A stretch of DNA of 64,000 bases, taken from contig NZ_LR593886.1 in NCBI RefSeq assembly GCF_901538265.1, forward strand, positions 5,105,738-5,169,737. The letters are read 5' to 3'. The translations under genes and the position numbers were made by a program. This DNA comes from Gemmata massiliana. GTDB lineage: Bacteria > Planctomycetota > Planctomycetia > Gemmatales > Gemmataceae. Of this stretch, positions 14,100-56,954 are shown piece after piece. The first letter of the stretch is position 1; every line of letters begins with the position of its first letter. Below the pieces are notes generated by a model that made no database searches, was not told the origin of the DNA, and was given only the letters and a program-made list of their open reading frames with translations.

Positions 14100-14190
14100 C
14101 GCGGATAAACGCAGATCACGCGGATCAGGACAAAAGACCGAATCGGAATTGGTCCTCTGTCTTGATCCGCGTGATCTGCGTTTATCCGCG
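14100..14190. repeat. Stand-alone hairpin related to the GxxExxY-flanking repeat
   Basis: Bases 14100-14127 are the exact reverse complement of 14163-14190 (28 bp); pairing extends to 14132/14158 with one G-T pair. The arm sequence has the pattern CRCGGATRAACRCRG...CRCGGATCA, which is also seen in the repeats at 55544 and 56035. It fills nearly the whole gap between the SDR gene and the convergent TIM-barrel gene, encodes nothing, and has no T-tract. Confidence 0.85.
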
Positions 14191-14206
14191 GCGCATTGTC
14201 TGCAAA

Positions 14207-37018: not shown

Positions 37019-39268
37019 ATGCCACGCGACCTCATCCTCGGCACGGCCGGGCACATCGATCACGGAAAAACGTCACTCGTGAAGGTGCTCACCGGGATTG
37101 ATTGTGATCGGCTTCCGGAAGAAAAGGCACGCGGAATCACCATCGACATCGGGTTCGCGAACCTCGACCTCGGCGACGTCCGGCTCGGTATCGTGGACGT
37201 GCCCGGCCACGAGCGGTTCGTGAAGAACATGCTCGCGGGTGCGACCGGCATCGACCTCGCGCTCTTAGTGGTTGCGGCCGACGATTCGGTCATGCCGCAA
37301 ACGCGCGAGCACCTCGAAATCCTCAAACTCCTGGGCATCCGAAACGGCCTCATCGCGCTCACGAAGGCCGATTTGGTCGATGAAACGACACGCGACGTGG
37401 TCGGACTCGAACTTCGCGAACTCGTGCGCGGGTCGTTCCTCGAAGACGCGCCGATCATCCCCACCTCCGCGCACACGGGCTTGGGGATCACAGAGCTGAA
37501 AGACGCGCTGCGCGAGATGTGTCTGCGTGTGGGAAGCGAAGAACCTAACCCCCTAACCCCCTTCCCTAAAAAGGAAGGGGGAACAGAACCAAAGACGGTT
37601 TTAAGCCCCTCTCCGTGCTCCGGCCCGCGAGAAGCTCCGCTGACAGGGCCGGAGAGCAAGCAGGGAGGGGTTGGGGAGGGGTTACAGCCACAACCTACCC
37701 CCCCATCCCCCCTCCCTGAAGGGAAGGGGGAGCAGGCGCGCGATCCCGCTGTGTTTGAGGCTACGTCGGCGGACAATTCTTTCTCCCCCTTCCCTTCAGG
37801 GAGGGGGGATGGGGGGGTAGGTTCTTCGCCCCCCTCAGCGAACGCACACAGAGGCGGTTCCTCCTGGTTTCGGCTCCCCATTGATCGCTCGTTTGTGGTC
37901 CAGGGGCACGGCACGGTCGTGACCGGTTCAGTCGTATCCGGTTCGATCGCAGTCGGCGACGAACTGGAATGGCACCGCGGAGACGGAACGACGGATCTCG
38001 TCCGCGTGCGGGGGCTGAACAACCACGGCCGCCCCGCGACCGAAGTACATCGCGGACAACGCGCGGCCGTGAATCTCGCCGGAGTGCCGCACGAACAGGT
38101 GCGCCGCGGACAGGAACTCGCTCGGCCCGATTACCTCCTGCCAAGCAAGGTGGTCACCGTCCGACTGTTCGCGTCGGCCGAAGGTAGGCACGGCATCAAA
38201 CACCGCCTGCCGGTGCGGTTACACGTCGGGACCTCGGAGGTCATGGCGACCGTGTCGCTTCTCGACTGCGACACAATTGATCCGGGACAATGGGGGCTCG
38301 CACAACTATTCCTCTCGGAGCCGGTCACAACGGTTTGGGGGCAACCGTTCGTGCTACGCGACTCGTCCGCGGAGCACACCCTGGGCGGTGGGCAAGTTGT
38401 TCAGCCGACTGCGGCCAAAGTGCGCCGCAGACACATCGAAGCCATCGAACAGATTGAAAAGCTGTGGTCCGACGAGCTCCAAACACGGGCACTCGCGGTC
38501 GCGTGGTTCGCGGGTACACAGGGATTTGAACCGGACGATCTTGTGCGGTCGGCCGGCGTTGAACCCAATCAAATCGAAGGACTTGTTTCGCAACTCACAA
38601 CAAGTGGGAAACTCACGGAACTCGCGTTCGCGTCGAACCGTCGGCTTCTGATCCACACCGAGCGCGTCACGCAGTTGGAAGCGCGCGTACTCGACACACT
38701 CGGCACGATGCACGCCGAGAACCCGCTAATGACGACGCACGACCGACAAAAAGTGCTCGCCCGGCTCGACTTCGTCGGCGACGAACAGCTCCTTCAAGCG
38801 ATCGCGGACCGACTCCTTCGCACGAAGAAGGTTGTGGGAGACACGCGCCGAATCGCTCGGGCCGATTTCAAACCCAAGCTCAGTGCGAACCAGCGCAAAT
38901 TGAAAGACAAAATTGTTGAAGCCCACGTCAGCGCGGGCTTCGCACCACCAGAACCCAAAGAGTTTGCGAACCAAGCGGGCGGGAACGCGACCGCGCTCAA
39001 AGACATTTTCGAGGTCGCGTGTGCAGAAGGGTTCCTGGTGCGTGTAACGGACGAGATCTACCTATCGGCCAAAGCCGAAACCGAAATGCGGCGCCGCGTC
39101 ACTCAGCGCTTACAGACCGGCCCGGGTGCGACCGTCGCAGAAATCCGCGACCTGCTCGGCACGACGCGGAAGTTCGCTGTGCCGGTGTGCGAATACTTGG
39201 ACCGTGTCGGGCTCACGAAGCGCGCGGGAGATCTGCGTGTTTTGGCGGAACCGGCCGCAACGGGGTGA
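37019..39268 (+). CDS. selB: Selenocysteine-specific elongation factor SelB
   Basis: SelB brings Sec-tRNA to UGA codons by binding a hairpin in selenoprotein mRNAs. The 749-residue protein has an EF-Tu-like GTPase domain ([20 protein letters not shown], and LTKADL), domain II starting at [21 protein letters not shown], and C-terminal winged helices with [13 protein letters not shown] and [20 protein letters not shown] start at the ATG at 37019. SelB is usually 600-640 residues; most of the excess is about 105 residues (about 175-279) made of repeat DNA between domains I and II. No tRNA-Sec, selA or selD is in the window. It converges with an ECF sigma gene, with one base between the stops. 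Confidence 0.93.
37541..37855. repeat. Palindromic repeat cluster inside selB, with 40-bp perfect inverted repeat
   Basis: Bases 37693-37732 are the exact reverse complement of 37783-37822 (40 bp, 50-base spacer). Before it lies a 9-bp CCCCCTTCC/GGAAGGGGG hairpin (37557-37565 with 37573-37581) and a third unit of different sequence around 37607-37660. The composition is C/G-homopurine-homopyrimidine, unlike the flanking coding DNA. It is translated in frame as Pro/Gly/Ser/Lys-rich linker ([36 protein letters not shown]). Confidence 0.92.
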
Positions 39269-55513: not shown

Positions 55514-55543
55514 TTGGAGAGACCTCAAGGAAAACAGAGACAG

Positions 55544-55576
55544 AGCCACGGATTAACACAGAAAACACGGATCAGA
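55544..55576. repeat. Repeat copy at the 3' side of the GxxExxY gene
   Basis: The 33-base sequence AGCCACGGATTAACACAG... ends exactly one base before the stop codon of the GxxExxY gene. Its reverse complement occurs at 56035-56068 with two mismatches and one added base. Confidence 0.85.
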
Positions 55577-56011
55577 TCAAGCAGATTCGATCTTCGGCCG
55601 CGACCGCTTGCGCTCGTTGTCGAACACCAGGCGCTTGAACCGCGGTTTCGGTCCGAAGTTGAGCAGCATTCCCACTTCGGCGGGCGAGGCTTTCAGATAG
55701 TTCAGTAGCTGCGAATTATGAGCGGGGTCTAACTCGTCCGCGGCCTTCAATTCGAGGATCACGGCACGTTCCACAAAGATATCGGCGAAGAAATCTCCGA
55801 CGAGGTGACCGCGGAAAAAGACGGGTAAGTGAACCTGAGTTTCGGCCCTCAATCCCGCATCGGCGAGCACGTGCAGCATCGCTTTGTGGTACACGCTTTC
55901 CAGAAACCCGAACCCCAACTCGTTGTACACCTCGAAGAACACGCCGATGATTTTCTCGGTGATCTCGCCGTGCCGGAGGTCACCGCGCGGGGCGTAATCG
56001 GGCGCGTTCAT
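55577..56011 (-). CDS. GxxExxY protein (PD-(D/E)XK-like)
   Basis: This 144-residue protein has the name motif G35-F-L-E38-S-V-Y41 and, further on, D77 and E87-L-K89, the residues expected for a PD-(D/E)XK nuclease fold (Pfam PDDEXK_3 group). Other features are GFGFLESVYHKAM and LKAADELDPAHNSQLLNYLK. The family function is unknown. Its stop codon begins right after one repeat (ends 55576), and an inverted copy (56035-56068) lies 23 bases before its start, so the gene and repeats look like one unit. Confidence 0.9.
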   Translation of the reverse strand: MNAPDYAPRGDLRHGEITEKIIGVFFEVYNELGFGFLESVYHKAMLHVLADAGLRAETQVHLPVFFRGHLVGDFFADIFVERAVILELKAADELDPAHNSQLLNYLKASPAEVGMLLNFGPKPRFKRLVFDNERKRSRPKIESA

Positions 56012-56034
56012 GTGGCTGATCCAAATGAATCTCT

Positions 56035-56068
56035 TCTGATCCGTGTTTTTCCGTGTTCATCCGTGGCT
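56035..56068. repeat. Inverted repeat copy at the 5' side of the GxxExxY gene
   Basis: This 34-base sequence is the reverse complement of the copy at 55544-55576, with two mismatches and one extra A. It reaches into the stop codon of the upstream beta-lactamase-like gene (56067-56069). Confidence 0.85.
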
Positions 56069-56954
56069 ATTTCTTCTCTTCCTTCTTCTCCCCATAGTGC
56101 TCGTAGACCTCTTTGGCGATCTTCCCGATCAGCACCTGGGCCGCGTTATCAGCTACCCAGCGCTTGTCATCGTTTCCGTCGGTGAGCACACACAGCACGA
56201 CGGGGCCGGATTTCAGGTACACGATGCCGGCGTCGGTTTTGGAAGCGTTCACGGAGCCGGTCTTGTGCGCGACGACCGTACCTGCCGGTAAATAGCGGGT
56301 CATCTTCTCTTTGTCGTCGCACGCCTTCAGGTGACCGAGCATCTCCTTACACGCTTCCGGCGACGCGACTTTCCCCGTTTCAATCAGTTCGAGGAGCTGC
56401 ACCATTTCCTTCGCGGTGGTGCTGCCGAGGCCGTACTTGTCGGTGCGCGCCTTATCGATGCTCGTGGTACTCCCCTTGAACACCTTGGCGTGAACCTTGG
56501 TGTTCTTAAGCCCGAGCTTCTCCATGCGCGTGTTGGTCGATGGGATACCGATCTGGTCGAGCACCATGTTGGTCGCAGTGTTGTCGGAATACACGATCAT
56601 CAGCCGCACCGCGTCCTTGAGCGGGAACGTGGCGCCGTCGCTAAAGTGCGATGTGAGGATGCCGCTGCCGCCCACCTTGTCGTCTTTCGTGAGGGTCAGT
56701 TTCGTATCGAGCTTCACCTTTTCCTCGTGCGCCTGCCAGTACGTTTCCACCATCACGGGCAGTTTGATGAGGCTCGCGGTGGGCATTGCCTCGTCCGCGT
56801 TGAGGTAGAACTCCTCACCGGTCTTCAGATGCTTCACCGCGACCGCGACTTTTCCCTTGTGGTCCTTCGCGAGCGGTGCGATGCGGCTTTCGAGATCGGC
56901 AGAAGAAGAGGGTGCGGCAAATAGCATGGTGGCAGCGAGTGTAACCAGACGCAT
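56067..56954 (-). CDS. Class A beta-lactamase-like serine hydrolase
   Basis: This 295-residue protein has a signal peptide (about 1-19), then SxxK (S61-L-I-K64), YSDN (S123-D-N125) and KTG (231-233), in the order and spacing of class A beta-lactamases. The omega-loop Glu-x-x-Asn motif expected about 34 residues after the SDN asparagine is not seen; that stretch reads VFKGSTTSIDKART. So it may be a peptidase or esterase with the same fold, and resistance should not be assumed. Start at 56954 chosen because the signal peptide begins there. Confidence 0.85.
   Translation of the reverse strand: MRLVTLAATMLFAAPSSSADLESRIAPLAKDHKGKVAVAVKHLKTGEEFYLNADEAMPTASLIKLPVMVETYWQAHEEKVKLDTKLTLTKDDKVGGSGILTSHFSDGATFPLKDAVRLMIVYSDNTATNMVLDQIGIPSTNTRMEKLGLKNTKVHAKVFKGSTTSIDKARTDKYGLGSTTAKEMVQLLELIETGKVASPEACKEMLGHLKACDDKEKMTRYLPAGTVVAHKTGSVNASKTDAGIVYLKSGPVVLCVLTDGNDDKRWVADNAAQVLIGKIAKEVYEHYGEKKEEKK

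Follow-up and report, generated by a model that had tools for sequence, protein, structure and literature searches.

The locus raises the question of why a small gene of the GxxExxY family lies exactly between two copies of one repeat in mirror image, and whether such an arrangement is that of a mobile unit. The window, by which we mean the whole stretch of 64,000 nucleotides of the Gemmata massiliana chromosome that was analysed, contains the following features at this place:

55545..55576, + strand: left arm, outer end GCC, GCCACGGATTAACACAGAAAACACGGATCAGA
55577..56011, - strand: GxxExxY gene (TIGR04256 / PF13366 PDDEXK_3), 144 aa
56035..56067, - strand: right arm, inverted copy of the left arm, outer end GGC
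55545..56067, no strand: whole bracketed unit, 523 bp, found at the same position in Gemmata sp. IIL30 and the MAG RYN_437

The bracketed gene and its product

The two arms are inverted repeats of about 34 bp (GCC...GGC), and the unit, which occupies 5161282-5161804 of the chromosome, begins and ends with GCCACGG...CCGTGGC. Three sub-units of about 10 nt (CACGGAT/CACAGA/CACGGAT) make up the left arm. The inverted match (55538-55576 against 56035-56074) is composed of a 28-nt pair at 86% and, shifted against it by a 1-nt indel, an adjacent 15-nt pair at 100%, and the arms form a very stable stem (hairpin folding z -13 to -15). The inverted repeats that the sequence-only reading had described are in place: the TGA of the gene (complement of 55577-55579) directly adjoins the left arm, and the right arm, which starts 23 nt upstream of the ATG (56011), extends to 56067, where the stop codon of a neighbouring beta-lactamase-like ORF has its last base. 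Its statement that a 525-bp unit fills the whole gap between two genes is accurate on the beta-lactamase side, but about 30 bp are left before the ATG of the Gfo/Idh-type gene on the other side and the unit measures 523 bp. A TIGR04256 profile search gives a single match in the 10.1-Mb single-contig genome. The arm core CACGGATNNACACRGA, with up to one mismatch allowed, has 70 matches in that genome (36 on the + and 34 on the - strand), while the same pattern read backwards has none, and the orthologous unit has an inverted-repeat score of 34 against a maximum of 13 among within-locus controls; the bracketing is therefore not due to chance.

The unit is present at the same locus in Gemmata sp. 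IIL30 (G400) and in the Gemmataceae MAG RYN_437 (G412), so that the window's own unit is old, vertically inherited and unmoved in the window's lineage.

The protein matches TIGR04256 with 126 bits (curated cut-off 35) and PF13366 with 132.6 bits (cut-off 22). Across 38 homologs L32, G35, F36, D77 and G120 are invariant, E38, Y41, E87 and K89 are conserved in at least 90%, and Q101 and Y105 are nearly invariant too; E38, D77, E87-x-K89 and Q101-x3-Y105 are the candidate catalytic or motif residues. The AlphaFold model (pLDDT 86.6) finds its best match among solved structures in SSO0001 (4ic1; Foldseek E 7.6e-5, Z 9.6), which is a Cas4, followed by lambda-type exonucleases, AddB and Hjc resolvases, with XisH chains also among the matches (Z about 6). 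The motifs D77, E87-x-K89 and Q101-x3-Y105, together with the fold match, point to a predicted minimal Cas4/RecB-type PD-(D/E)XK nuclease. The assignment first made from D77 and E87-x-K89 (invariant and nearly invariant, respectively) is thus upheld as a prediction and sharpened to a Cas4/RecB-type fold. Searched against solved structures, the sequence profile gave only chance-level S100 matches; PADLOC gave weak matches only (E 1e-3) and PHROGs none. Nucleases of the Cas4/RecB type are repair or processing enzymes. The GxxExxY protein resembles Cas4 and the RecB-AddB-lambda-exonuclease group in predicted fold and in the D, ExK and QxxxY motifs, but at its length it has no Fe-S cysteine domain, it has no CRISPR or helicase partner, and it is tied to its own flanking repeats. 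It likewise shares the superfamily fold and a DNA element context with PD-(D/E)XK homing endonucleases and the XisH/fdxN excision factors, but the gene is not inserted in a gene or intron, its sites are dispersed and repeated, and no excised element was found.

Gene-less hairpins of the same family in Gemmata

An arm HMM run over sampled sites of the window's genome detected 81 arms, with 29 inward-facing pairs and no outward-facing one. Twenty-eight of these pairs are gene-less hairpins of 77-328 bp, too short to hold a GxxExxY gene, in which only the arms are conserved; the sole pair that does hold a gene holds the only GxxExxY gene of the genome. Hairpins of this kind fold with z-scores of -13 to -15. 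At 878912/880984 two inward-facing arms stand about 2 kb apart around an ordinary ORF, presumably sigma-factor-like; this pair was left out of the units. One further hairpin lies within the window itself:

14100..14192, no strand: gene-less hairpin, same repeat family, diverged, CGCGGATAAACGCAGATCACGCGGATCAGGACA ... GTCTTGATCCGCGTGATCTGCGTTTATCCGCGGC

This copy was missed by the genome-wide pattern, hence the true copy number exceeds 70. The two arms of one element are more similar to each other than arms of different elements (29.5 versus 27.8 of 34, p 2e-4), and at 6954442 and 6986283 both arms have changed in parallel relative to the close relative G400.

Hairpins nested in hairpins occur at seven places of the genome (2422072, 8047440, 8718235, 9004715, 9407764, 7093661 and 6875294). 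The inner ones are of another type, GGCCACAAAAAGGCACAAAG or GACAGGATTAACAGG, which in four sister species (G398, G394, G401 and G393) forms the arms of GxxExxY genes. The window's genome thus seems to contain repeats without their gene, and the inner repeats are apparently orphans. At 37528-37837 of the window, apparently between genes, there is also a set of nested inverted repeats that differ in type (AACCTACCCCCCCATCCCCCCTCCCTGAAGGGAAGGGGGAG, 41 nt, 100% complementary).

At four gaps that were compared, sister species either share the hairpin, lack it or have one from another family in its place. The hairpin is absent from G396 at 9004715 and from G392 and G396 at 7093661, and in the same gap other relatives carry a hairpin of a different kind. 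For some hairpin families of sister species (GGCCGGTGTAAGCCGG and GAACCCCGCCCGC) no nuclease is known, which means that hairpins like these can occur unlinked to GxxExxY. Additional families (GGCCGGTGTAAGCCGGCC, GAACCCCGCCCGCAAGGGCGG and CAGCTTTCAGCT) were seen in orthologous gaps of sister Gemmata genomes (L219-L235). In G396, a sister genome, two units of 82% identity occupy unrelated sites with homology that stops at the arms, indicating that duplication of a whole unit can happen. No target-site duplication is visible at the G396 units or the compared gaps, where the relatives are too diverged and include no very close empty site, and no excision intermediate was seen.

These data bear on a conventional autonomous transposon, moved by cut and paste by a PD-(D/E)XK transposase, of which the hairpins would be the MITEs. 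The exact GCC...GGC termini, the short gene-less derivatives with only their arms conserved and the G396 pair all agree with it, and MITEs with a parent DDE transposon show the same sharp-ended terminal inverted repeats and gene-less derivatives. We nevertheless consider it unlikely, since there is usually one unit per arm type in a genome, the parent unit is syntenic between genera, the units within one genome are mostly of different types, and at orthologous gaps a hairpin is often replaced by a different one and not cleanly absent; there is also no DDE enzyme, and target-site duplications were not seen in relatives that are, as said, too diverged. The sequence-only reading had proposed a transposable or REP/RAYT-like unit. 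The second half of that proposal is strongly supported, with a single-copy gene flanked by inverted repeats that recur elsewhere in gene-less inverted pairs, whereas the first, a freely moving transposon, is not supported for this copy, which keeps its place in Gemmata sp. IIL30 and the Gemmataceae MAG.

Arms, genes and repeats across genomes

A scan of a genome collection, made without selection for repeats, provided a first set of 53 GxxExxY loci from Planctomycetota, Acidobacteriota, Chloroflexota, Bacteroidota, Gemmatimonadota and other phyla, 46 of them testable. About 250-290 placements within each locus served as its control, and a locus was called bracketed when the flanking inverted repeat scored above all of them. 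This was the case for 30 of the 46 testable loci, for 14 of 29 among the best matches in the phylum, and for 40 of 59 from sister-genus and selected genomes. In the merged set, analysed with one ORF caller, 81 of 128 loci from several phyla are bracketed and 47 have no detectable bracket. The first set is the fair estimate because the Flavobacterium loci are non-independent and the later sets were partly picked from repeat-rich genomes. Most of the GxxExxY loci tested thus carry such flanks, a point on which the sequence-only reading had made its proposal depend. In Flavobacterium (L055, L057, L061, L064 and L073) the gene stays at one place, in an apparent biotin operon where a dethiobiotin-synthase-like gene follows closely downstream, and its arms stay inverted.

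TIGR04256 is found in 185 of 392 genomes of the phylum, the window's own genome included. Co-occurrence was tested in these 392 with the own genome excluded, using two repeat motifs and a threshold of at least 5 copies of either. The gene is present in 89 of 102 repeat-rich genomes (13 without it) versus 95 of the 289 others (194 without it; p 2.5e-22), and stratification by 12 hand-typed families leaves an odds ratio of 5 (p 4e-4). The 95 carriers with few copies may have other arm types, invisible to the two motifs. The 13 repeat-rich genomes without a GxxExxY gene are mostly incomplete MAGs, and a search of such genomes for degenerate PDDEXK_3 genes found none over the cut-off. One of the genomes without the gene, G291, is complete; its 44 copies of CCACGGAGGCACGGAGACACGGAG are solo and not paired (L308-L337), with the + strand predominating in an initial portion of the chromosome and the - strand in the remainder, a replichore-like strand bias. 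In the loci that were read these copies bracket no gene, and no substitute enzyme was found.

The type of the arms differs between genomes and between genes. The ortholog in RYN_437, which has the same neighbours, is flanked by GCCGCACGATAAACGCAGA, differing from the window's arms. Counted with up to one mismatch, GCACGATNAACGCAGA occurs 39 times in the genome of RYN_437, mostly in inverted pairs, whereas the window's genome has no exact copy of it and two with one mismatch. The arms and the dispersed copies of RYN_437 are of the same type and have therefore changed type together. Where one genome has several GxxExxY genes (G396, G412 and G386), each has a different arm type. Protein identity and arm similarity between genomes are correlated (rho 0.44), also among the non-syntenic pairs that are left once pairs with homologous flanks have been removed (Mantel rho 0.42, p 3e-4). 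The presence of a GAT or a GAG/AAG unit follows protein clades: scored by a GAT/no-GAT rule (a crude automatic unit count gave ambiguous labels), the arm state requires 12 changes on the maximum-likelihood protein tree, against a minimum of 20 and a mean of 25.6 after shuffling. This covariation, which extends to unlinked loci, and the fit to the tree establish that arm type is a property of the protein lineage and not of the genome.

Repeats are common in these genomes, and an abundant intergenic repeat could come to flank a gene by accident. Such a coincidence is scarcely credible in view of the within-locus controls in 128 loci, the one gene-holding pair of the window's genome that holds its one GxxExxY gene, and the covariation of arm and protein.

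A mobiliser of the RAYT type (a Y1 HUH transposase), with the GxxExxY genes as passengers of its REPs, would explain a layout that resembles REPIN/RAYT, but we regard it as highly improbable and reject it. Neither the window's genome nor G041, which has 65 motif copies, contains a PF01797 match, and of 10 Y1 loci in eight further genomes that carry the repeats, none has such flanks except for one weak match about 0.7-0.8 kb away in G044 (481 copies).

A more serious alternative is that the host has domesticated the nuclease and uses the arms as its binding or processing sites, for example in hairpin or cruciform trimming for repair or in the control of its own mRNA, while the hairpins owe their spread to something else, for instance replication slippage, recombination or a different transposase. 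The vertical inheritance at fixed loci (in Gemmataceae and in the bio operon of Flavobacterium), the very stable stem of the arms and the repair or processing functions of the Cas4/RecB family are all in keeping with this explanation. It is possible but doubtful, as the dispersed copies switch type when the arms of the gene do and the abundance of the repeats goes with the presence of the gene, a combination which argues that the gene is tied to the spread and not only to a local use; in addition, the genome has no Y1 transposase.

Relation to REP/RAYT systems and proposed mechanism

The closest known parallel is REP/REPIN with RAYT (PMC2817692, PMC3116915), in which a small single gene likewise lies between two inverted repeats, the repeats are mostly dispersed as inverted doublets forming hairpins, arm changes are compensatory, the gene locus is fixed and repeat type tracks protein type. 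The differences are in the enzyme and in the repeats. The GxxExxY enzyme is an unrelated, predicted PD-(D/E)XK nuclease with no HUH/Tyr motif; its arms are not individually palindromic, being arrays of 8-10-nt units, and lack the GTAG/CGTC tag; its hairpins are longer than REPINs and sometimes nested. With the HUH transposase absent and the repeats devoid of individual palindrome and tag, the GxxExxY system is not a member of REP/RAYT. The mirror-image arms, the scattered gene-less hairpins and a repeat type that tracks the nuclease type make it look like an undescribed counterpart of these repeat-spreading systems, built on an unrelated enzyme.

We consider it probable that this is a REPIN/RAYT-like repeat system in which an unrelated nuclease recognises its own arms and promotes the copying, spread or replacement of hairpins; the data above show that gene and repeats are associated and evolve together, and that the protein binds, cleaves and mobilises DNA is what we infer from this. 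We propose that the GxxExxY gene with its two inverted arms is the gene-bearing "parent" copy of a hairpin repeat family. The nuclease would recognise its own arm type, made of tandem 8-10-nt units (CRCRGAT in some protein clades, CRCRGAG/AAG in others) paired as a hairpin or cruciform, and would most likely do so once such a structure is exposed. Units in tandem at this spacing would lend themselves to successive contacts with the helix. It may then cut or trim the arms, whereupon gene-less hairpins would be copied, spread or replaced in intergenic gaps. A stand-alone Cas4/RecB-like PD-(D/E)XK nuclease would thus take the place of the HUH tyrosine transposase.

Our search of the open-access literature turned up no account of what GxxExxY proteins do or of the repeat sequences; in the papers found, GxxExxY is mentioned in passing only, in one instance for a Cas4 gene that was interpreted as GxxExxY (PMC8934634). 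Linking the GxxExxY genes, found in 185 of the 392 sampled genomes of this phylum and also in several others, with CACGGAT/CACGGAG-type repeats gives both of them a testable role. We are evenly divided on a wider claim, which would make GxxExxY proteins the founders of a large unrecognised class of bacterial repeat-propagation systems, with an arm code of tandem 8-10-nt units specific to each clade, by which matching hairpins are spread, and a Cas4/RecB-like mechanism unlike known transposition. If the nuclease does propagate the repeats, bacteria would have arrived at REPIN-like selfish or domesticated hairpins on two or more occasions by way of unrelated enzymes, and the link of a Cas4-like nuclease to DNA mobility would extend beyond CRISPR and casposons. 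With protein and arm types matched across species, a protein-DNA recognition code becomes open to direct test.
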